A stretch of DNA of 43,523 nucleotides from Gammaproteobacteria bacterium (GTDB taxonomy: Bacteria; Pseudomonadota; Gammaproteobacteria; GCA-001735895). Location of the stretch: assembly GCA_014382695.1 (NCBI GenBank), contig JACNJF010000123.1:1-43523 (forward strand), in the 5' to 3' direction. The position numbers were made by a program, and so were the translations under genes. This document shows, piece after piece, positions 12,255 to 42,129 of the stretch. The number at the start of each line of letters is the position of its first letter. Position 1 is the first letter of the stretch. Below the pieces are notes generated by a model. The model did no database searches. It was not told the DNA's origin and was given only the letters and a program-made list of their open reading frames with translations.

Positions 12255-12818
12255 TTAACGTTTCGCAACCCGATGCATGATCGGTAATAAAAAAGGAGCA
12301 CAGATCAGGAACAGTATCAACTCAACAGGCCAGTGACTGCCGGCGACCGGATTTCCACGAAAACGCTGCAGGAAAGCATCGAAGGTATTCCCGCTCAGAT
12401 TGCCAAAATATATCGCCGCACACAGACTGCGAATCGCGAATACCTGCATGGGTGAATAATGAGCCATCAACAACTCCAGCTGTGCAGGCTCCGGACGTGC
12501 TCCCGATTCGGCATAATGCAGCGCAAAGATTAGCGCCGGTTTTTCACTTTCAGCACTCCCCTGCGGAATCAACTGCTGCAGCAACGAATCAACCTCTGCA
12601 GAGTCCAGACCACTACGCTCAGCCATTTTTGCATGAAACCAGCAACAGTAAGAACAGGCATTCACCCCTGAAACCACCAGCAGGATGCGCTCCGCAAATC
12701 CTGGCGCTAAACCGCGCAACAGATAAACCCAGAGCACACCAGGGATTGACTTTATCAGCCCATAACTGGCTGCCAGCAGCCCGCTAAAAGTAAAGATCCG
12801 CTTGCGAAAAACGTCCAT
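12255..12818 (-). CDS. AhpD-like (carboxymuconolactone decarboxylase fold) membrane-anchored protein
   Basis: About 187 residues from the ATG at 12818, which has GGAG 10 bases upstream inside the end of the preceding gene. The core motif N-A-C55-S-Y-C58-C59-W-F-H62 fits the AhpD redox signature CxxC-x3-H, with an extra adjacent Cys. The C-terminus ends in a hydrophobic helix (WPVELILFLICAPFLLPI) and a short basic tail, so the protein may be tail-anchored. AhpD relatives use the paired Cys in peroxide or disulfide chemistry. It follows the small gene 12826-13101 by seven bases, suggesting coupled translation. The substrate is unknown. Confidence 0.75.
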   Translation of the reverse strand: MDVFRKRIFTFSGLLAASYGLIKSIPGVLWVYLLRGLAPGFAERILLVVSGVNACSYCCWFHAKMAERSGLDSAEVDSLLQQLIPQGSAESEKPALIFALHYAESGARPEPAQLELLMAHYSPMQVFAIRSLCAAIYFGNLSGNTFDAFLQRFRGNPVAGSHWPVELILFLICAPFLLPIMHRVAKR

Positions 12819-12825
12819 CGTTAGC

Positions 12826-13101
12826 TTACTCCGGCACAACGGCAAAAGACTGCGCGCGATCCTGTTCCTGCTGCAGGGTATTTTTCATCCAGCAGTTTTT
12901 CCAGCGCTTAATCGGAACCCCATCCACCAGTTGACGTGCATGCTCCAGAGCCAGAGGGTCCGCGTGCGGAAATTCGCTAATCAATGTGTGCGCAATCTGC
13001 AGATAAACCCGATCATCCTGCTGCCTGTCATCAGCCTCCAGCGGGATGGAGACGATCAATAACAGACCCGGTATACATTTTAAGCGGTTGTGCAGCGGCA
13101 T
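12826..13101 (-). CDS. Small protein of unknown function upstream of the AhpD-like gene
   Basis: 91 residues, ATG start with AGAGAG 7 bases upstream. The N-terminus is mildly hydrophobic (PGLLLIVSIPLEAD); the rest is polar with an acidic/His stretch (LISEFPHADPLALEHARQLVDG). No family is recognised. Its stop lies seven bases before the AhpD-like start, and that gene's ribosome-binding site is within this gene, which supports a real two-gene operon. Confidence 0.6.
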   Translation of the reverse strand: MPLHNRLKCIPGLLLIVSIPLEADDRQQDDRVYLQIAHTLISEFPHADPLALEHARQLVDGVPIKRWKNCWMKNTLQQEQDRAQSFAVVPE

Positions 13102-13424
13102 GAGGCAATCTCTCTGAAATCAGCAATGTGACAATCATAAAAGAGATCTTAGGAAAGGTCTGTAACATAGTCACACTGGAGATCCCAACAAGTTAGTACA
13201 AGATAATGGCCGGATCAGCCCGATGAATCAGGGCTGGCATTCCGTAATAAGCCTGAGCAAAAATTTCTAATGCATCCAATTCAGCGACATTCTGATCTAC
13301 CCGGTTATGTCTGGTGAAGTAGTGCTTCTCCCAAAGCCGTGATCACGGCGTATCAATTAAGGGCCTTAGTGAAAATAATTGTTAAAATCAGCAAATCCCC
13401 CACCCCTATATGGCAAATAAATTC
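13102..13424. other. Intergenic region with a 14-base perfect palindrome
   Basis: No gene was seen. It contains the perfect palindrome GCCGTGATCACGGC (13336-13349) and a hairpin CAGCCC / GGGCTG (13216-13221 and 13231-13236). The arms of the palindrome abut without a spacer, so it does not fit a CRP or FNR site. It lies upstream of the small-protein genes and downstream (by orientation, upstream) of the minus-strand AhpD-like operon, so it is a divergent control region. Confidence 0.5.
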
Positions 13425-13512
13425 TTGACATTAAAAGTTAACAGGGGTAACAATTTAGTACCAAGAAGTACTACGTATAGACTGAGGGATTAGAGAAGTA
13501 CGTTTCCCGTAC
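13425..13512 (+). promoter_or_regulatory. Candidate promoter and operator region for the small-protein genes
   Basis: A perfect -35 TTGACA is at 13425-13430. The best -10 is AACAAT at 13449-13454 (18-base spacing, 4 of 6), which is weak. An inverted repeat TAGTAC-N6-GTACTA (13456-13473) sits where transcription would start, and a second GTACG-N5-CGTAC lies at 13498-13512. Both share the GTAC core, as repeated operators for one regulator would. Promoter strength and regulator are inferred. Confidence 0.35.
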
Positions 13513-13573
13513 GATGGATATCTGATTTATCATTGTTAAAAGTCTTGATATAAATTCGCAGGAGTTATATCGG

Positions 13574-13825
13574 ATGTTAAAACAAACCGTTAAATGGATC
13601 ACAGGGAAATATATTACCCCGCGCTATTTTCTGCACGCAAATCCTGACATTCATTCTCCGCAGGACAACATCAGCAATTTTCAGGCACAACCATTAAATC
13701 AGAATTCGTTTCCCCTGAGACAATTCTTTACCCCGAGCATTGATGGTTTAATCAACTCAGAAAATACTCCCTCAAGCAGTCATTTTATGCCGTCCTTAGA
13801 GCACGAGCCTTTGCGTTCAAGCTAA
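13574..13825 (+). CDS. Small hypothetical protein
   Basis: 83 residues with a good ribosome-binding site (AGGAG, 9 bases before the ATG). The product is polar, rich in Asn, Pro and Ser, with no transmembrane helix or recognised motif. Codon use is plain and AT-rich compared with neighbouring metabolic genes. It precedes a membrane-protein gene by 17 bases, so they may share a transcript. No function can be assigned. Confidence 0.5.
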   Translation: MLKQTVKWITGKYITPRYFLHANPDIHSPQDNISNFQAQPLNQNSFPLRQFFTPSIDGLINSENTPSSSHFMPSLEHEPLRSS

Positions 13826-13842
13826 CAACAATAACGCTTAAT

Positions 13843-14637
13843 ATGGAAAATACGATCATGGAACACTGGATTGAATTATTATTTAGCTACGGCCCTTACG
13901 CGGTCTTTGTCCTGCTGGTTTTTTTAATAGCGCCTAAACAGACCAAAATATTTTTGAGCTGTGATAAACAGGATAAAGTATGCCGAACGCTATGCGGAGG
14001 TGTCGCCGTTGGCTGCTGGATACTGGTCGCCGTTATGGCCTCAGCAATCCTCTACTCCTGGCCGCCAAAGCTGGTCTACGAAGGTTCGCTGGGCAGGCAC
14101 TCAGATGATGTAATCTTTTTCCCGGGCGAGAATCTATTTCTAACCACCAGTGATTTGCGCGATGGATTACTGGAGTGGCGCTATGTAGTCGTGGTTAATA
14201 ACCTGAATCCAGGTCACAAGCAATCTGAGTTTTTCCTGCGCCATCGCTGGGGAGAAGGCGATCAACAGTTTAAAGACTACGAGATTGCCTTAAGTGATTT
14301 TGCCTCAGGGACCTTCAACCTGAAATCTGATCCGCAGGACCCCAGCGTACTGCTGCATGATAATGAAGTCTTTGCCCGTGTTTCACATCACTCACAAGCA
14401 CAGCAGAATGCCAGCTCTTCATCAGTTGAATACTGGTTTGCCGCCTATGCTCAGGAACCTGAGAATTTTCCCATGTTAATAAACTCGTTAAACTCCAGAA
14501 ATCCGCATTTTCAAACTCAGGCAACACGTGAATTACACAGCCTTTCAAATACAGAACTTAAGAGCTTGATGTCCACAGCTGGTGGCAGCGCCCAATCGCA
14601 GATAAAACTGGAACTCCAGCGGCGGATTGAACGGTGA
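13843..14637 (+). CDS. Membrane protein of unknown function with two N-terminal helices
   Basis: 264 residues. Two transmembrane helices (about residues 12-29 and 49-73) are joined by a short basic, Cys-containing loop; the remaining ~190 residues are soluble, with a central beta-rich part (DVIFFPGENLFLTTSDLRDG) and a helical C-terminus (LHSLSNTELKSLM..QIKLELQRRIER). An ATG at 13858 (MEHW) has GGA 10 bases upstream and is an alternative start. No family is recognised. It is followed by a long intergenic stretch. Confidence 0.65.
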   Translation: MENTIMEHWIELLFSYGPYAVFVLLVFLIAPKQTKIFLSCDKQDKVCRTLCGGVAVGCWILVAVMASAILYSWPPKLVYEGSLGRHSDDVIFFPGENLFLTTSDLRDGLLEWRYVVVVNNLNPGHKQSEFFLRHRWGEGDQQFKDYEIALSDFASGTFNLKSDPQDPSVLLHDNEVFARVSHHSQAQQNASSSSVEYWFAAYAQEPENFPMLINSLNSRNPHFQTQATRELHSLSNTELKSLMSTAGGSAQSQIKLELQRRIER

Positions 14638-31751: not shown

Positions 31752-34700
31752 ATGGTACAACAGAATCCGGCTAGCACTGATGGCATCATTGATCAGCTTG
31801 TTGCTTTATTACAGGCAAGACTGCCAGCGCAGGCCAATACACTCGAAACCTTTGTCAGACTGTACTATCGGGGAACTTCGAGCAAGGATCTGAACGAGTC
31901 CAGTATCACCGACCTCTACAGTAAAGTCATTGCACACTGGAGTCTGGGTAGCCATTTCAGCGCCGGCAGTGGCTGTAATATCCGAGTATACAATCCGCGC
32001 ACAGAGGCGCAGGGATGGGATTCCATCCATACCATCGTTGAAGTGGTCACCGACGATGCCCCTTTTCTGGTGGACTCGGCCCGCATGGCAATTAATCGAC
32101 TGGGATTCTCGATTCATCTGTCGATCCATCCGGTGATGCATATCGAGCGTGATGCTGAGGATAATTTCATGCAGGCGGTAGCGCGCAGTGATGCTGGCCC
32201 CACCGCGCGTCGTGAATCCTTCATGCTGTTTGAAATCGATCGTCAGAACGATCCGTCCATACTGGCCAGGATACAGACTGAAGTCCAGCAGGCAATCCAG
32301 GATGTGCATACTATCGTGTCTGATTTCGATGCGATGCGCAGTCGGCTCCAGTCCGACCTTGACCACCTCAACACACAGCCAGCGTCGATCAATGCCAACG
32401 AACTGCAGGAAGGAGCAGCCTTTCTACAATGGTTGATCGAAGATAATTTCGTTTTCTTCGGCTATCGTGAGCACCGCCTGATCAATCAGGATGGTGAAGA
32501 TCAATTACAGATCGTCCCCGGCACCTCGCTCGGCCTGCTGCGCAAAACCGATGAAAACAGCGACTCCAGTTCATTATGCAGAAGCTTTGCCGCACTCCCG
32601 CCAGAGGCCCGTTGTCTGGCACGTAATCCCGAACTGCTGGTCATCACCCGCTCCGGTTCCGAATCGACCGTGCACCGTCCGGGCTATATGGATTACATTG
32701 GTATCAAGCAGTTCAATGCCGAAGGTGAAGTGATCGGAGAACATCGCTTTCTAGGACTGTATACCTCCGCCGCCTACACCGGCGATACGCGCAATATTCC
32801 GATCCTGCGCCGTAAGGTTGAAAATGTCATCAAAAGTACCGGCAGCCACGAAAATAGCCATGCCGCGCGCGCTGGCCGATATTCTGGAAACCTTTCCACG
32901 GGATGAAATGTTCCAGATTTCTGAACCAGAACTACTCGAAACAGCACTCGGCATACTGCAGTTACAGGAAAGACAGAAAACCACGCTATTTATCCGGCGA
33001 GACCCATTCGGGCGCTTTTACTCCTGTCTGGTGTATATCCCGCGCGATCATTTCAATACCGATGTCAGAAAGCAGATCAGCCTCATTCTGGAACAGGCTC
33101 TGCATGGAGAATCGATCAAGTTTTCTGTCAAGATTAGTGAATCGGTTCTGGCCAGAGTGCACTTTCTGATTCATATAACCCCTGGCACCTATAGTCCGCA
33201 TGACAGCGCTAAAATCCAGGCCGACATCGTGGCCGCGATTCGCCCCTGGCGCGATTATCTGCATGATGCCCTGCTCGATCGTTTTGGCGAAGAAGAAGGC
33301 AATCGACTGCATCGCCATTACAGCGACGGTTTTCGCGCGGATTATCTTGAAACCTATTCGCCGGAGATTGCGCTACATGATATCCAGCAGATGGAAAAGC
33401 TCAGCCAGACGGGCGACATCGGGATGGCATTATTCCGTCCGCAGGATGCCCCCGACAACCTGCTGCGCTTTAAGCTGTACAGTTTCGGCCACCCGGTTCC
33501 ACTCTCTGAAGCCCTGCCTATGCTGGAAAACATGGGCCTCAAGGTGATTGATGAGCATCCCACTAAAATCCGGCTGCCGGATAAGGAAGTCATCTGGATC
33601 CATGACTTTGGCATGCTGCATACCGAGCAGAACCTGCAACTGAACACGGTAAAGGAAATTTTTCAGGATGCCTTCCCACTGATTTTTCGCGGAAAAGTGT
33701 CCAACGATGGATTTAACCGGCTGACCCTGCGCGCGGGACTCGGCTGGCGCAGGGTGTTGATCCTGCGTGCCTATTCACGTTATCTGCGTCAGGTGCGCGG
33801 TACCTTCAGTCATGACTATATGATTCAGGCACTGATCGGCAATGCCGACATCGCCACCCTGCTGATCGAACTGTTCGAAGCGCGCTTCGATCCGCAGCGC
33901 GAACAGGCACGAGCACAAACCGTTGCCGGCATTGAAGCGCAAATCTATCAAGCACTGGATCAGGTTGCCAGCCTCGATGAAGACCGGATTATCCGCAGTT
34001 TTGCCGGAGCCATCAGTGCCAGTATCCGCACCAATTATTACCAGCCCGATATCAACGGTATTATCAAGGATTACCTGTCGTTCAAACTCGACTCCTCAAA
34101 AGTGCCTGAATTGCCGGACCCGCGCCCCAAATTCGAAATCTTTGTTTACTCGCCACGTGTCGAAGGTATCCATCTGCGCGGCGGCAGTGTTGCCCGCGGT
34201 GGTCTACGCTGGTCGGACCGCTCGGAAGACTTCCGTACCGAAGTACTGGGACTGGTAAAAGCCCAGATGGTGAAGAATGCGGTGATTGTTCCAGCCGGCT
34301 CGAAAGGTGGCTTTGTGGCTAAACAGTTACCGCCGAATGGCAATCGCGAACAGATCATGGCCGAAGGTATTGCCTGTTACCGGATCTTTATCAGCGCGCT
34401 GCTGGACCTGACCGACAATATCGTGGATGGCGTGATTCAGCCTCCGGTACTGGTGGTCAGACACGACAGCGATGACCCTTATCTGGTGGTCGCCGCCGAT
34501 AAAGGCACCGCTACCTTTTCCGATATTGCGAATGGCGTGGCCGCCGATTACGGCTTCTGGCTGGGCGATGCCTTTGCCTCCGGTGGCTCGGTCGGCTACG
34601 ATCACAAGGCCATGGGGATCACCGCAAGGGGCGCCTGGGAATCGGTAAAACGCCACTTTCATGAGCTTGGACTGGACACCAACCGCGATGAATTCAGTGT

Positions 34701-36630
34701 GATGGGCATCGGCGACATGAGCGGCGATGTGTTCGGCAATGGCCTGCTACTGTCACGTAAAATCCGCCTGCTCGGCGCGTTTAATCATCAGCATATCTTC
34801 CTCGATCCGTCGCCGGATTGCGAACTCAGCTTTAGTGAGCGCGCGCGACTATTCCAGCTGCCTCGTTCGAGCTGGGAAGATTACAATAATCAACTGATTT
34901 CAGCCGGTGGTGGACTCTATCTGCGCAGTGCGAAGAAAATCCCGATTACTGCAGAGGTACAGAGCATGCTGGGTATAGAGGCCAGCTCTCTGCCCCCTAA
35001 CGAGCTGATCAAGGCCATGCTCAAAGCACCGGTCGATCTGTTGTGGAATGGCGGCATAGGCACCTATGTGAAGGCCAGTGATCAACAGCACCTGGAAGTC
35101 GGTGATCGGGCTAACGAAGCGGTCCGTATTAACGGTAAAGAGCTGCGCTGTCGGGTGGTAGCAGAAGGTGGCAACCTCGGCCTGACCCAACTCGGACGTA
35201 TTGAATACGCACAGCATAAGGGTCGTATTTTTACCGATGCGATCGACAACTCAGCCGGCGTTGACTGCTCTGACCATGAAGTAAATATCAAGATCCTGCT
35301 CAACTCGGAGATCTCTGCGGGCAGCATGTCGTTCCCGCAGCGCAATGATCTGCTCGTCAGCATGACCGATGAAGTTGCCGCACTGGTGCTTAAAAATAAC
35401 TATCAACAAACCAAAACGCTGACCCTGGCAAGCTCTCAATCATTGCGTATGATAGAAGTGCATGCGCGCCTGATACGGTCACTTGAATTGCGCGGCGCAT
35501 TGAACCGGGTGATTGAGTATTTACCCTCCGAAGAAATCATCCTGGAGCGGATGAATAAGGCGGAAGGATTGACCTCACCCGAACTGTCTGTGTTGCTAGC
35601 CTACGTCAAGATCGATCTGTACGATCAATTGATCGTATCTGATTTGCCTGAACAGGCTTATCTGCAAAGCTCACTGTTGAATTACTTCCCGACACCCCTG
35701 CGTGGCGCATTTCCGGTTGCAATGAACAACCATCGTCTGCGTAGAGAAATCATCACCACCGAACTTACCAATGGCATGGTCAATCGCGCAGGCATTACCT
35801 TCGCCTATCGAATGAGCGAAGAAACCGGTGCCAGCCCGGCAGACATTACCAAGGCCTATATCATTATCCGCGAAATCTTTAGCCTGGCAGGCCTGTGGAG
35901 CGAACTGGAAGCGCTGGATGGAATGATCGCTACGGATGTACAAACGTCGATCTACTTTGACTCGCGTAAACTGATGGAAAGAGCCGTACGCTGGATCATT
36001 CAAAACCGACCCTGCCCGCTCTCGATTGACCAGAATATTGAACGCTACCGGCCGCTGCTGCAATATCTGGCAACCATACTGGTCACCCGTATCGATCAAC
36101 AGCAGCATAAAAACGCGCAGGCCAAAACCATTAAACTGATCAAGGCCGGAGTACCCGAATCCCTCGCGATTCGAGTAGCCACCTTCGATGCACTCTCATT
36201 CGGTATGGAACTGGTGGAAACCGCTATCGCCACCCAGATCGATCTGGATGTAGTGGTGGCGGTTTACTTTCAGACCGGTGAGCAACTACAGCTTAACTGG
36301 TTAAGAAACAGTATCTCAGAACTTCCACGCAATACGCACTGGCAGGCCATCGCGCGAGGCACGCTCAGAGATGATCTTCTGGAGCTGCACAATTTAATCA
36401 CCAGTCAGGTCCTGTATTGCGTTCCGGCACATGCCGAAGCAGATGCGCTGGAAAGCTGGATCGGACAGAATAAAAAACAGGCCGATCACTGTTTCAAGCT
36501 CATTACCGAGCTGCACACAGGCCCGGCTCCTGACTATACGATGCTATCTGTCATCTTACGCGAACTCAGGCGACTGGTTCATCAACCAGTTCCTGCAGCT
36601 GTGGCAATTCCAACAACAGGTGTCGCATGA
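31752..36630 (+). pseudogene. gdhB: NAD-glutamate dehydrogenase, large (GdhB) type, split by a frameshift
   Basis: Two frames together encode a ~1626-residue enzyme, the size of the Pseudomonas GdhB family (~1620). This class deaminates glutamate to 2-oxoglutarate in catabolism. The first frame (31752-32906) holds the N-terminal ACT-like region, starting at an ATG with GAGGAG 8 bases upstream, and reaches GLYTSAAYTGDTRNIPILRRKVENVI before running into a stop. The second resumes as LADILETFPRDEMFQ and carries the catalytic core: [56 protein letters not shown] and WNGGIGTYVKAS. The switch is at CC(GC)4T (32863-32873); inserting one GC gives SHAARALADILETF, aligning with relatives without a gap. 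An initiation inside the gap (ATG at 32818) would yield a protein without the regulatory N-terminus. It heads an operon with the decarboxylase 54 bases later. Confidence 0.9.
32863..32873 (+). other. CC(GC)4T frameshift site in the glutamate dehydrogenase gene
   Basis: The same 11 bases as in the histidine kinase gene, with a +1 frame change of the same sense. Here no homopolymer adjoins, so gain or loss in the GC tract is the simplest explanation. Another (GC)4 at 34839-34846, with different flanks (A before, GA after), is in-frame and intact. Confidence 0.85.
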
Positions 36631-36684: not shown

Positions 36685-39549
36685 ATGTCTGAAAATAACA
36701 CTATACCCTTGAGAAAGTCGCTGGATTACTACCATAGTGCAAGCCAGCTACGATTCGATACCTGGCATCGACTCGAACATTACACCACACAGCTGAGTGA
36801 CCGATCTGCACGTAAAGCGGATATTGCGCGCTTCAAGAAAGCCGCCCACGATGCAATGAGCATTCTCGAAACCATCGAATACTATACCGCGTTTCCTTCA
36901 CGCGAAGATTTCAAGACGCTGTGGAAATTCCTCGATCGTGAAGACTACTCGACCCTTTCGCGCATGGTTGTGCGTCTGGTACGAGCCATCACCACCCATT
37001 CCTATCAGCGTAATACTTTTTCTTCCATCCAGCGCCTTAGCGTGGGTGATGAATCGGCCGATACCGAAGAAGAAAATGAACAGGATCCATCGCAGGTTAA
37101 ACCCTACTTCGAAGTACTGTTTGTAGACGATATGAGCAATGCCGATGAAACCCGTCTACGCAATGGCCTACGCGAGATGCGCCGGCCCGATGATCGCTTT
37201 CACTATGAAGTGATTACGGTACCGACGTTTGAAGATGCGTTGATCGCAGTGCTGTTCAATTACAATATTCAGGCCTGTGTCATCCGTTACGGGTTTCCGT
37301 TTCGCTCCAAGAACCATCTGGAAGTCCTGCAGCGTTATCTGTCGGGTCTGAATGAGTCCGATGCTGAAGAACAGCCGGATAATGACCGTGGCCCGTTACT
37401 CGGTGCAATGATCTCCGAACTGCGTCCTGAACTAGACCTGTATCTGGTCACCGATGTGGCGGTTGAGGAAATCGCCGGCAGTATTGCGGAGAAATTCCGC
37501 CGCGTGTTTTACCGTCAGGAAGACTATCTGGAACTCCATCTGGCCATCCTCAGAGGCGTTTCCTCACGCTATGAAACACCCTTTTTCTCGGCCCTCAAGG
37601 AATACAGTCGTAAACCAACCGGCGTATTCCACGCGATGCCAATTTCGCGCGGGATGTCCCTGACCAAATCAAAATGGATACGCGACATGCTACATTTTTA
37701 CGGCATGAACGTGTTTCTGGCAGAAACCTCTGCCACCTCTGGCGGTCTCGACTCACTGTTACAGCCGAGTGGTCCAATCAAAAAAGCGCAGGAACTGGCC
37801 GCACGTGCCTTCGGTGCCAGCCGTACCTATTTCGCCACCAATGGCACCTCAACATCAAATAAAATCGTGGTGCAGGCACTGATCAAGCCGGGTGACATCG
37901 TACTGGTCGATCGGGACTGTCATAAATCCCATCATTACGGCATGGTGCTGGCTGGCGCTCAGGTGTGCTATCTCGATTCCTACCCGCTCAGCCAGTATTC
38001 GATGTACGGTGCGGTGCCACTGGAAGAAGTCAAACACCGCCTGATCCAGTACCGCAACGCCGGGGTGCTCGATCGGGTCAAGATGCTGCTGCTGACAAAC
38101 TGTACCTTCGATGGCATCGTGTATAACGTCGAACAGGTGATGCAGGAATGTCTGGCGATCAAACCGGATCTAATTTTCCTGTGGGATGAAGCCTGGTTTG
38201 CGTTTGCTGGATTTCACCCGACCTATCGCAAACGGACCGCGATGTACTGCGCAAAGATGCTGGAAGCACGTTACCAGAGCACCCAATACCGCGAGAGCTA
38301 TGCCGCCTATAAGAAAACCCTGAAGAAGCTGGAATCCAAGGGTAACGATGAGGCCTGGATTGAGACCCCGCTGATGCCGGATCCGGACAAGGTCAAGATC
38401 CGCGTGTATGCCACACAGTCGACCCATAAAACTCTGACCTCTCTGCGCCAGGGTTCGATGATTCATGTGTATGATCAGGAATTCCGGCACAAGGTGGAAG
38501 AATCTTTCTCCGAAGCCTTCATGACCCACACCTCGACGTCACCTAACTATCAGATTATTGCATCACTCGATGTCGGTCGCCGTCAGGTCGAACTGGAAGG
38601 CTATGAACTGGTACAGAAGCAGCTCGATCTGGCCATGGCATTGCGTGAACGCATTACCACTCACCCACTGTTGAATCGTTTTTTCTCGGTGCTGGTGGCG
38701 AGCGAAATGATACCTCCGAAATTTCGTCCGTCCGGCATTGATACCTACTTCGATCCGCAAACAGGCTGGCGCAACCTGAATATGGAAGAAGCCTGGACCA
38801 AGGATAACTTTGTGATCGACCCCAGCAGGATCACGCTGTATATCGGCAACACAGGTATCGATGGCGACACCTTCAAAAACCGTTATCTGATGGACAAGTA
38901 CGGGATCCAGGTGAATAAAACGTCGCGTAACTCGGTACTGTTTATGACCAATATCGGCACCACGCGCAGCTCGGTCGCCTACCTGATCGGGGTACTGGTA
39001 AAGATTGCCAACGATCTCGATCGCGAATGGAAAGACAGTAGTCCACGTGAACGCCGTATCATCGAACGACGCATCAAATCTCTGACCGTAGAGCTACCGC
39101 CACTGCCGGATTTCAGCTATTTCCATCCGATGTTTTCACGCGGCAAGGCGCTGGGTACGCCGGAAGGCGACATCCGCACCGCCTACTTCCTGTCTTACGA
39201 CGAGCGCCTGTGTGACTACATGCGCATCGATGATGAACTGATCGAAGAGGAAATGGGCAAAGGACGCGAACTGGTGAGTGCCGGCTTTGTGATTCCCTAC
39301 CCGCCGGGCTTTCCAATACTGGTACCCGGACAGGTTTTGAGTAAGGAGATACTCAACTTTATGCGCGCACTGGATGTAAAGGAAATCCATGGTTACAGAG
39401 CCGATCTCGGCTTAAGAGTATTTAGAGATGAAGCACTGATCAGCGGATCTGAAACCACGACCTCCAGAGTCACCGTAGCCGATATCGCAGCCGTTATCGC
39501 CCAGGAAACGAGCAATCTAGACTCTGATCAATCACCCGAAGATAATTAA
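36685..39549 (+). CDS. PLP-dependent Orn/Lys/Arg-family decarboxylase, long form
   Basis: 954 residues; AGGAGG lies 5 bases before the ATG. The N-terminal ~135 residues are helical and atypical, followed by a response-regulator-like wing (~140-280, FEVLFVDDMSNADE) as in inducible decarboxylases. The PLP core (~310-760) has ATNGTSTSNK for the phosphate, D-x-x-H-K-S-H-H (His ~413), FLWDEAWFAF with Asp501 for the pyridine N, and STHK with Lys582 as the Schiff-base residue. The C-terminal domain follows. Such enzymes decarboxylate arginine, lysine or ornithine to agmatine, cadaverine or putrescine; the substrate here cannot be read from sequence. It follows gdhB by 54 bases and precedes the ATP-grasp gene by 17, so all lie in one operon. 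Confidence 0.93.
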   Translation: MSENNTIPLRKSLDYYHSASQLRFDTWHRLEHYTTQLSDRSARKADIARFKKAAHDAMSILETIEYYTAFPSREDFKTLWKFLDREDYSTLSRMVVRLVRAITTHSYQRNTFSSIQRLSVGDESADTEEENEQDPSQVKPYFEVLFVDDMSNADETRLRNGLREMRRPDDRFHYEVITVPTFEDALIAVLFNYNIQACVIRYGFPFRSKNHLEVLQRYLSGLNESDAEEQPDNDRGPLLGAMISELRPELDLYLVTDVAVEEIAGSIAEKFRRVFYRQEDYLELHLAILRGVSSRYETPFFSALKEYSRKPTGVFHAMPISRGMSLTKSKWIRDMLHFYGMNVFLAETSATSGGLDSLLQPSGPIKKAQELAARAFGASRTYFATNGTSTSNKIVVQALIKPGDIVLVDRDCHKSHHYGMVLAGAQVCYLDSYPLSQYSMYGAVPLEEVKHRLIQYRNAGVLDRVKMLLLTNCTFDGIVYNVEQVMQECLAIKPDLIFLWDEAWFAFAGFHPTYRKRTAMYCAKMLEARYQSTQYRESYAAYKKTLKKLESKGNDEAWIETPLMPDPDKVKIRVYATQSTHKTLTSLRQGSMIHVYDQEFRHKVEESFSEAFMTHTSTSPNYQIIASLDVGRRQVELEGYELVQKQLDLAMALRERITTHPLLNRFFSVLVASEMIPPKFRPSGIDTYFDPQTGWRNLNMEEAWTKDNFVIDPSRITLYIGNTGIDGDTFKNRYLMDKYGIQVNKTSRNSVLFMTNIGTTRSSVAYLIGVLVKIANDLDREWKDSSPRERRIIERRIKSLTVELPPLPDFSYFHPMFSRGKALGTPEGDIRTAYFLSYDERLCDYMRIDDELIEEEMGKGRELVSAGFVIPYPPGFPILVPGQVLSKEILNFMRALDVKEIHGYRADLGLRVFRDEALISGSETTTSRVTVADIAAVIAQETSNLDSDQSPEDN

Positions 39550-39566
39550 TAAACTCAGGACTAACT

Positions 39567-41030
39567 ATGACTATTAAAAAATTACGCAATATTTCTGACA
39601 TTCGTCGCTACTTCCATCGCAACGAAACACCTATATTCTTTTTTAGCGCGACCAACTTTAATCTGCTGGGTATCAGCGAATGGGTGTCTAACTTTCATTA
39701 TATCAATTACATCGACTGTTTCGACGGGCGCCATCCGAACGTATTCGTACCCAGTGAAATACCACATCGTGAATTTGAAAGCATCGAAGACATCAATAAC
39801 TACCTGCTGCAGCACAAGGAAGTGATCGACTTTGTAGAATCCAAAGGTCCCGGCGGTAAAGCGGTATTTCTGATGTTCGATGAACAGACCGAAGCACTCT
39901 GCGCTGAGCTGGGCCTCGATGTCTGGTTTCCGTCTGCTGAGCTGCGTTCCCGCGTCGATAACAAGATTGAAACCGTACGTATCGGTAATCGCGCTGGCGT
40001 CCCCAGCGTACCGAACATTCTGTCCAAAGTAGAAAGCTATAAACACCTGTGCGAAGTGTCTGCCGAACTCGGCACCGATCTGGTATTACAGTCTGCTTTC
40101 GGCGATTCCGGCAAGACCACCTGGTTTATCTCGAACCAAGAAGAATACAAAAAGTACGCCAAACAGATCGAAAAGGAAGATGAAATCAAGGTCATGAAAC
40201 GGGTCAATGTACGCGGTTCAGCGATTGAAGCCTGTACCACCAAGAAAGGCACCATTGTTGGCCCGCTGATGACCGAACTGGTCGGCTTCAAGGAACTCAC
40301 CCCGTACAAAGGTGGCTGGTGTGGTAATGAAATATTCCCCGACGCCTTCCCGCAGGATGTGCGCGATAAGGCGCGTGAATTTACCTTCAAGTTTGGTGAA
40401 GCTCTGCGCGAAGAAGGCTATCGTGGCTATTTTGAACTGGATTTCCTGATCGATCAGGATAACGGTGAAATCTATCTGGGTGAACTCAATCCACGTGTAA
40501 CCGGTGTCAGCAGCCTGACTAACTCAGCCGCATTCGCTCACGCCGATGCGCCACTGTTTCTGTTCCATCTGCTGGAATTTTCCGATATCGATTTCGAACT
40601 GGATGTCGAAGAGCTGAATGATCGCTGGTCTGATCACGACAATATCGACGGCTGGAGCCAGCTAGTCCTTAAGTTCAACGAAGACCGGGTTGAATGGGTC
40701 AGTGGTGCACCCGAATCCGGTATCTGGCGTGCGGAGGATGACGGTCGCATGATGTATCAGCGCTTCGATTATCATCGGCGCGGTATCGTCAGCGAAAAAG
40801 AAGGCTTTTATCTACGCATCATTGGCGAGGGTGATTATATCTACAAGGGTGCTGACCTCGGCATTCTGATCACGCGTGGTCGCCTGATGAATGATGACTT
40901 CACCCTGAATGAAAGAGCTAAGCGCTGGATACGAGACCTGCATAATTCATACGTCTCTCAACCTCTGGAAAATGTAAAACAGGAGGATGTTCCGATGAGT
41001 CTGGAAGCAGGAGCTTTCAAGATTCTCTGA
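39567..41030 (+). CDS. ATP-grasp ligase of unknown substrate (biotin carboxylase-like fold)
   Basis: 487 residues. An N-terminal preATP-grasp part (~1-125) is followed by the ATP-grasp fold: DNKIETVRIGNRAGVPSVPN, glycine-rich LVLQSAFGDSGKTTWF, VMKRVNVRGSAIE, and the metal-binding GELNPRVTGVSSLTN at ~315-330. A C-terminal region of ~130 residues (WSQLVLKFNEDRVEWVSGAPESGIW) is not shared with common carboxylases. Family members form an amide or thioester bond through an acyl-phosphate intermediate. Because it sits between a decarboxylase and an Ntn hydrolase with 17- and 11-base gaps, ligation of an amine or amino acid is a likely role, but this is inferred. No biotin-carrier protein is nearby. 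Confidence 0.9.
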   Translation: MTIKKLRNISDIRRYFHRNETPIFFFSATNFNLLGISEWVSNFHYINYIDCFDGRHPNVFVPSEIPHREFESIEDINNYLLQHKEVIDFVESKGPGGKAVFLMFDEQTEALCAELGLDVWFPSAELRSRVDNKIETVRIGNRAGVPSVPNILSKVESYKHLCEVSAELGTDLVLQSAFGDSGKTTWFISNQEEYKKYAKQIEKEDEIKVMKRVNVRGSAIEACTTKKGTIVGPLMTELVGFKELTPYKGGWCGNEIFPDAFPQDVRDKAREFTFKFGEALREEGYRGYFELDFLIDQDNGEIYLGELNPRVTGVSSLTNSAAFAHADAPLFLFHLLEFSDIDFELDVEELNDRWSDHDNIDGWSQLVLKFNEDRVEWVSGAPESGIWRAEDDGRMMYQRFDYHRRGIVSEKEGFYLRIIGEGDYIYKGADLGILITRGRLMNDDFTLNERAKRWIRDLHNSYVSQPLENVKQEDVPMSLEAGAFKIL

Positions 41031-41041
41031 TACGCATTTTC

Positions 41042-42040
41042 ATGCATCTACATTTTGACGCGATTGCGGAGACTAAGCCGGGGCCAGTATGGACCGGCTT
41101 ATTTAATCGTCACTGGGAAGCCTATAAAGCCTGGTTTTTATCATCCGGTGAAAGCGACCGGCCGAGTTATCTGGAATCGCGCCGGATGCTGCGAAAATAT
41201 GTTCCTGAATTACTGCCCACCTATGAAAAACTGGTAGAGCTGGCGGGCGGCGGTGATCTGGCTGCCCGCTTTCTTGCCCTGTATCGACCTCCTCCCTATA
41301 TCGCCGGCTGTTCGCAGGCGGTGTGGCCGGATCATTATCAGCCGATACTGGTGCGTAATTACGATTACAGCCCGAGCCTGTGTGAAGGCACCCTGTTGAT
41401 GAGCCAATGGAACGAGCGGCGCGTGATTGCAATGGGTGACTGCCTTTGGGGAGTACTCGACGGGATTAACGATAGCGGTCTTTCGGTTTCACTTTCGTTC
41501 GGTGGCAGACGTGTGGTTGGCGATGGCTTTGGTGTGCCTCTGATCCTGCGCTATGTACTCGAATTTTGCGACACCTCGGAAGAAGCCGTAAAGGTACTGG
41601 AAAGAATACCGACTCACATGTCCTACAATGTCACGGTGCTGGACCGCAGCGGGCGTTTTCAGACTGTTTTTATGGCACCGGACAAAGACCCTGTGATACG
41701 CCAGATTCCGTTTGCGACCAATCATCAGGGCCGTATTGAATGGCATCGGCATGCACGTGCAACAGCTTCCCTCGAAAGAGAACGTTTTCTGGCGGATCGT
41801 CTGGCCGATAGTGTGGAAACCGAGAAAGGTTTCATTCGTTCGTTTATGGATTCCCCACTTTACTCGAAGAAATACCAGAATGGTTTCGGAACGGTTTATA
41901 CGGCGGTGTATCGTCCACTGCAGGGCGCGATGGAATTACGCTGGCCGGGCATGACCTGGCGTCAGTCTTTCGATAACTTTCAGGAAGGACGTCAAACCAT
42001 CCGTTACCTGTCGAAGGCTCCCGAGTATACCCAGAAGTAA
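41042..42040 (+). CDS. C45-type Ntn hydrolase (acyl-CoA:6-APA acyltransferase-like)
   Basis: 332 residues. The Gly-Cys pair in PPYIAGC90SQAVW followed by ILVRNYDYSP is the hallmark of C45 Ntn hydrolases, in which self-cleavage before Cys frees it as the N-terminal nucleophile; the pro-part of ~89 residues is close to the ~102 of isopenicillin N acyltransferase. The next motifs are GDCLWGVLDGINDSGLSVSLSFGG, ILRYVLEFCDTSEEAVKVLERIP and ATNHQG. These enzymes hydrolyse or transfer acyl groups on amides. It starts 11 bases after the ATP-grasp stop without a clear ribosome-binding site, so coupling is probable. It ends before a strong terminator, closing the operon. Confidence 0.9.
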   Translation: MHLHFDAIAETKPGPVWTGLFNRHWEAYKAWFLSSGESDRPSYLESRRMLRKYVPELLPTYEKLVELAGGGDLAARFLALYRPPPYIAGCSQAVWPDHYQPILVRNYDYSPSLCEGTLLMSQWNERRVIAMGDCLWGVLDGINDSGLSVSLSFGGRRVVGDGFGVPLILRYVLEFCDTSEEAVKVLERIPTHMSYNVTVLDRSGRFQTVFMAPDKDPVIRQIPFATNHQGRIEWHRHARATASLERERFLADRLADSVETEKGFIRSFMDSPLYSKKYQNGFGTVYTAVYRPLQGAMELRWPGMTWRQSFDNFQEGRQTIRYLSKAPEYTQK

Positions 42041-42086: not shown

Positions 42087-42129
42087 TCGGTGTAGAAAGA
42101 CTGCTGGACGGCTTCTACACCGATTTTTT
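42087..42129 (+). terminator. Rho-independent terminator closing the operon
   Basis: Arms TCGGTGTAGAAAG (42087-42099) and CTTCTACACCGA (42112-42123) pair with one bulged A and are followed by six T. It lies 47 bases after the C45 stop. On the minus strand no T-run follows, so it acts for the plus-strand operon. Confidence 0.92.

Follow-up and report, generated by a model that had tools for sequence, protein, structure and literature searches.

A recurrent proteobacterial cassette joins an OKR-fold decarboxylase, an ATP-grasp ligase and a C45 hydrolase and may act on an omega-amino acid amide

Genes for a pyridoxal phosphate (PLP)-dependent decarboxylase of the Orn/Lys/Arg type (OKR; DC), an ATP-grasp ligase (GRASP) and a C45-family Ntn hydrolase (C45) form a real, recurrent and undescribed cassette, whose enzyme families are known and whose combination is new. 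We describe it from a window of 43,523 nucleotides (the whole stretch of DNA analysed), gammaproteobacterial contig JACNJF010000123.1. A search of the literature for this set of genes, or for PRK06524, the family of the ligase, returned nothing relevant, in keeping with the initial annotation of this DNA, which knew of no named pathway with this set; no reaction has been assigned in this setting to any of the three families (PRK06524, C45 and the Rv2531c-type decarboxylases). The loci show directly which genes are present, that they are linked and that their active sites are intact; for substrates and products, we infer that the cassette may make and break an omega-amino acid amide, with gamma-aminobutyrate (GABA) as the likeliest such acid, a reading to which we assign a probability of about 0.38. 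Assigning the operon would correct many annotations together and make the question of the Rv2531c substrate testable. The features of the locus are:

36685-39549, + strand: DC, OKR-type decarboxylase, 954 aa (PF01276 and Rv2531c similarity)
39567-41030, + strand: GRASP, ATP-grasp ligase of NF005096, 487 aa (profile score, fold and ELNPR motif)
41042-42040, + strand: C45 Ntn hydrolase proenzyme with nucleophile Cys90, 332 aa (NF040521, structural model and Ntn residues)
42088-42129, + strand: intrinsic terminator 3' of C45, hairpin and T6 (sequence and fold)

The three genes constitute one tight operon closed by a strong terminator. As initially annotated, the window's ORFs are separated by 17 nt (DC to GRASP) and 11 nt (GRASP to C45), with 54 nt between the stop codon of an upstream glutamate dehydrogenase (GDH) gene and DC. 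The claimed terminator is borne out by an almost perfect hairpin (CGGTGTAGAA...TTCTACACCG) followed by T6 at 42088-42129; folding gave z = -3.4 (97-nt spacer), and a consensus scanner reported no terminator because the hairpin loop exceeds its allowed length. A role for GDH in the cluster, also put forward in the initial annotation, did not hold up. The gene encodes a 180-kDa NAD-GDH and is frame-broken into an ORF at 31752-32906 (ACT1 domain) and an ORF at 32818-36630 (the remainder, C-terminal part); one relative (L016) reads both as a single protein, and the break lies near 32866-32870. Since this GDH adjoins the cassette only in the window and two close relatives (L016 and L019), we rejected it as a cassette member. 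An unrelated dehydrogenase of the Glu/Leu/Phe/Val type lies near the rhizobial copies L101, L103 and L104, a weak hint only.

Using the GRASP protein as a query, we collected 80 related loci and located DC and C45 in them by tblastn. C45 flanks GRASP in all 80 and DC lies nearby in 72, with median gaps of 33 nt between DC and GRASP (n = 67) and 20.5 nt between GRASP and C45 (n = 80). Among the eight loci without a counted DC, four (L034, L053, L074 and L077) are cut by contig edges in genomes that carry DC, L017 has a partial DC at a contig edge, and L083 has its DC elsewhere in the genome; DC was not found in two Thiothrix genomes, nor in a Shinella plasmid, for which the plasmid record alone was searched. 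An independent sample of 299 Pseudomonadota genomes, drawn evenly and including the window's own, gave the same picture: besides the window's genome, 12 carry DC and eight carry GRASP, all eight being among the 12 (genome-level Fisher p = 3.5e-13, a statistic that ignores relatedness). Every one of these eight genomes keeps DC, GRASP and C45 within a few kb of each other, in three gene orders: DC-GRASP-C45, CN-GRASP-C45-DC (CN being the CN hydrolase described below), and C45-CN divergent from DC-GRASP. Because the gene set is kept while its order is shuffled, functional linkage is favoured over inheritance as a block. These data support DC, GRASP and C45 as a conserved functional unit and supply the co-occurrence survey that the initial annotation had proposed; it had held that genes scattered among relatives would tell against a shared pathway, and in the relatives the three genes are linked. 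Leaving aside the window's own genome, the cassette occurs in 8 of 298 Pseudomonadota genomes in the sample (~3%), and its hosts comprise alpha- and gammaproteobacteria, betaproteobacterial and rhizobial plasmids, and one planctomycete assembly.

Two features of these loci had been overlooked in the initial annotation: a fourth gene and a context of GABA catabolism. The gene encodes a nitrilase-superfamily CN hydrolase (amidase; PF00795, 105 bits), is present in 65 of the 80 loci, mostly directly upstream of DC, and retains the conserved Glu, Lys and Cys blocks (FSEL, K-FPF and ICYD). The source genome carries it on another contig (C114; L096:684-1523, 54% identity), and L016, L019 and L020, all close relatives, have it immediately past the TAXI-TRAP-USP genes with which the window ends. 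Within the random Pseudomonadota sample, CN hydrolase is found in six of eight GRASP genomes and in none of the four genomes with DC only.

Examination of the neighbouring genes revealed GABA transaminase (GabT) near the cassette in 21 of 80 loci (about a quarter) and succinate-semialdehyde dehydrogenase (SSADH) in five; one locus (L044) forms an array, GabD-GabT-CN-DC-GRASP-C45, whose GabD and GabT both score above curated family cut-offs. A ureohydrolase was sought in the 21 GabT loci and found in none of them, and a local agmatine-to-GABA route is therefore incomplete there. TRAP (TRAP/TAXI) genes occur in about 15 loci, USP genes in 12 and a PuuR-like regulator in eight, while a PuuA-like (gamma-glutamylputrescine-synthetase-like) gene is found in one of the 80, so that the loci do not read as a Puu pathway. 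The Thiothrix and Shinella cassettes that lack DC carry instead AruI (755 bits in Thiothrix, cut-off 500), an aldehyde dehydrogenase (ALDH), an agmatinase-type ureohydrolase and DadA, with RidA and a racemase-arginase fusion in addition in Shinella. This AruI/ALDH/ureohydrolase/DadA set is a route ending in GABA. GABA would thus unite the cassettes with and without DC; arginine is an alternative common theme. Four further apparent neighbour clusters (c4, c8, c12 and c14) were discarded, since their ORFs were mere shadows on the strand opposite cassette genes or adjacent genes, in genomes rich in GC.

All three enzymes look catalytically intact, judging from residue conservation, and the motifs listed in the initial annotation stood. 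DC matches OKR_DC_1 (PF01276, 265 bits), and its PLP lysine, Lys582 in an STHK motif, is kept in 69 of 69 family sequences. The closest solved relative is Mycobacterium tuberculosis Rv2531c (9N0N/9N0O), which matches at 833 bits over 919 aa (residues 18-936), a full-length similarity that includes the long N-terminal region. We placed DC in the Rv2531c family by this match to the M. tuberculosis structure, determined by cryo-EM; K582, R322, R588 and N744 are common to DC and that family (PDB 9N0N/9N0O/9N0P), and a 2026 review calls the activity of Rv2531c unknown (PMC12910592).

DC shares with the classical Orn/Lys/Arg decarboxylases (LdcI, AdiA and OdcC) the PLP fold and the STHK lysine, but differs from them at three positions close to the active site. 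Firstly, Glu526 of LdcI (the Glu of VEKTG), proposed from docking as a substrate-binding site (PMC5607190), is present in the three classical chains we aligned (AdiA and two LDCs) and is Asn744 in 69 of 69 DC-family members, leaving DC without the acidic residue proposed to hold the distal amine of the substrate; secondly, the Ser of the classical post-lysine (F/L)SQ motif is Arg588 in all 69; thirdly, a Gly of the classical TPGHxGG is Arg322 in all 69, the family reading (M/L)P(I/V)(S/A)RG (AMPISRG in DC). Judged from the alignment, these replacements together tell against a basic substrate and would fit an acidic one. DC thus probably differs in specificity from the ordinary Lys/Arg/Orn decarboxylases, and the initial expectation of an ordinary amine made from a basic amino acid fares poorly, an acidic glutamate having been lost and an invariant arginine gained. 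The gained arginines could have other roles, and the Glu526 argument combines a docking proposal with an alignment. A sister DC clade of six sequences (support 100/100) lies beside Asp-Al_Ex (AspT) antiporter genes in 6/6 cases, a layout in which a decarboxylase is paired with an acidic-amino-acid exchanger; the AspT proximity is a property of the sister clade, not of the cassette DC clade.

GRASP belongs to NF005096/PRK06524 by score (768 bits, curated cut-off 684) and also matches CPSase_L_D2 (27.4 bits, cut-off 19.8). Its Mg/ATP residues around ELNPR (D292, E306, N308 and R310) are invariant in 36/36 sequences, and a predicted model of moderate confidence (pLDDT 78.6) has biotin carboxylase and PurK as its closest folds. 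The family is named 'biotin carboxylase', yet GRASP reads ELNPR(V/I)TGAS where biotin carboxylases read EMNTR(L)QVEH, the bicarbonate motif being absent. With TGAS in place of QVEH, the family name is probably a misnomer, and the likeliest activity of GRASP is that of an amide ligase. A GRASP paralogue (45-50% identity) in relatives adjoins amidase-like and MttB-like genes, named by sequence inspection; this would again set a putative ligase beside an amide hydrolase. C45 carries an AAT domain (112 bits) and scores 181 bits against C45_proenzyme NF040521 (cut-off 85). Cys90, R105, D108, N227 and R246 are invariant in 34/34 sequences, and Gly89, which precedes the nucleophile, is kept in 28/34, with Ala or Ser in the rest. 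Its AlphaFold model (pLDDT 93.7) best matches 2X1C, a precursor isopenicillin N acyltransferase (E 2.6e-13), consistent with a Cys-nucleophile Ntn proenzyme of AAT fold.

In the pathway we favour, DC would strip the alpha-carboxyl group from glutamate, its likeliest substrate among the acidic amino acids, to give GABA; aspartate, giving beta-alanine, is the alternative. GRASP would convert a carboxylate to an acyl-phosphate and couple this to an amine, one of the two partners presumably being the omega-amino acid; C45, after self-cleavage before Cys90, would remove the acyl group by hydrolysis or transfer. An amide of this pathway is probably also the substrate of the CN hydrolase, whose gene lies elsewhere in the source genome, and freed GABA could be drained by GabT and GabD. 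For the GABA reading speak the uniform Asn744, the two gained arginines, AspT beside the sister clade, GabT and SSADH near the cassette, the arginine-to-GABA genes where DC is absent, and a GRASP without QVEH; against it, GabT is absent from most loci, and the cassettes with AruI point just as well to an arginine theme.

That theme underlies the main rival, which we consider rather unlikely: DC would make agmatine from arginine, GRASP would add a protecting acyl group, comparable to the gamma-glutamyl group in the Puu pathway, and C45 remove it, and meanwhile the guanidine would be removed and the chain oxidised to GABA, the CN hydrolase serving in deguanidination or amide hydrolysis. Such a route would fit the OKR fold of DC, the AruI, ureohydrolase and D-amino acid dehydrogenase genes of Thiothrix and Shinella, the Shinella racemase-arginase fusion, the PuuR-like regulator, and the DC of plasmid XES5, which has argP, argO and rocF within 5-8 kb. 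It is harder to reconcile with the loss of the classical distal-amine Glu throughout the family, with GabT loci devoid of a ureohydrolase, and with a gamma-glutamylputrescine-synthetase-like gene in a single locus.

Two other readings give the amide a different purpose or replace it with a carbamate. The product could be a specialised amide that is secreted or stored (a signal, an osmolyte or a siderophore-like compound), C45 then being an acyltransferase rather than a hydrolase; the isopenicillin N acyltransferase-like fold and the tight linkage across diverse genomes are as this would predict, but genes for a dedicated exporter, for tailoring or for a carrier protein are not conserved among the loci, whose recurring neighbours are importers (TRAP/TAXI) and GABA catabolism, and we regard it as quite unlikely. 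We find it improbable that GRASP is a PurK- or biotin carboxylase-like ATP-dependent N-carboxylase of an amine or guanidine, with C45 and the CN hydrolase cleaving the carbamate or amide: the family name and the nearest solved folds point that way, whereas TGAS occupies the QVEH position and C45 enzymes are N-acyl amidases or acyltransferases.

The favoured omega-amino acid amide pathway resembles two known systems. In the black-ebony-tan system of Drosophila, a PLP decarboxylase makes beta-alanine, an ATP-dependent ligase conjugates it to an amine, and Tan releases it (PMC5555718). The three-step logic is alike, as an analogy that would not imply homology of the pathways, and the ligase families differ. 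Ebony is an NRPS-like enzyme, not an ATP-grasp; we take Tan to be a C45-family hydrolase, and the beta-ureidopropionase Pyd3 is a CN hydrolase. It is possible, although we think it unlikely, that the cassette is a bacterial counterpart, spread over many proteobacteria, in which an OKR-fold decarboxylase of acidic amino acids, an ATP-grasp ligase forming GABA or beta-alanyl amides, and C45-mediated release are combined; if true, this would bring a new specificity for the OKR fold and a likely activity for Rv2531c. The Puu pathway from putrescine to GABA (PuuA/PuuD) is similar in its ATP-dependent amide formation, later hydrolysis and GABA end product, and some cassette loci have the PuuR-like regulator. 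PuuA is glutamine-synthetase-like and PuuD is a class-I amidotransferase-type hydrolase, however, and both families are absent from the cassette.

A defence-system reading was set aside after a PADLOC search gave no match. We also considered a FixJ/CATCH-N link in Sinorhizobium meliloti, in which SMa0680/SMa0682 are reportedly FixJ-regulated and SMa0684 is said to be the symbiosis-essential adiC. On pSymA of strain 1021, the sole DC matches are two tandem classical OKR-like genes (26-34% identity), which we take to be SMa0680/SMa0682 in an unannotated record, and GRASP was not found on this plasmid; we therefore dropped the link, and the cassette of strains SM11 and RU11 is thus a different, accessory locus.

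The 180-kDa NAD-glutamate dehydrogenase gene upstream of the cassette of decarboxylase, ATP-grasp ligase and C45 hydrolase genes (window positions 31752-36630) is split by an apparent frameshift near 32866-32870, either a sequencing error or a real break; by comparison, its counterpart in L016, a close relative of the window, is a single frame of 1634 aa. In relatives of the window's family (L003-L010) the ATP-grasp enzyme has a 48% paralogue, whose neighbours include amidase-like, MttB-like methyltransferase, GlxA-like regulator and M24-peptidase-like genes. This locus perhaps represents a parallel amide route with a quaternary amine as its target.

Within the tree of Rv2531c-like decarboxylases, the cassette of L047, recorded as Oceanobacillus sp. 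HTM 045, clusters with Paracoccaceae, indicating either a mislabelled or contaminated assembly or a transfer. In the sister clade, outside the cassettes, the decarboxylase gene is linked to AspT-type antiporter genes in all six cases (L111, L112, L140-L143); together, the two could form an undescribed system for acidic-amino-acid decarboxylation and antiport.

Plasmids of Rhizobium leguminosarum (L103, L104) carry cassette copies that are decaying or duplicated: the decarboxylase is split, the C45 match covers only the first 75 residues and adjoins an IS30 gene, and an additional, N-truncated ATP-grasp copy is present. On the Shinella plasmid L102, the 'alanine racemase' gene (12788-14575) encodes an alanine-racemase N-terminal domain fused to an arginase-family domain, probably an arginine racemase-arginase, and is adjoined by AruI, DadA and RidA genes. 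Downstream of two Shinella-type cassettes, those of L102 and L106, lies a conserved opposite-strand set (L102:14990-19452, L106:15036-19452) comprising NadE-like, adenylate-forming enzyme, acyl carrier protein and AsnB genes, possibly a separate biosynthetic operon of its own.
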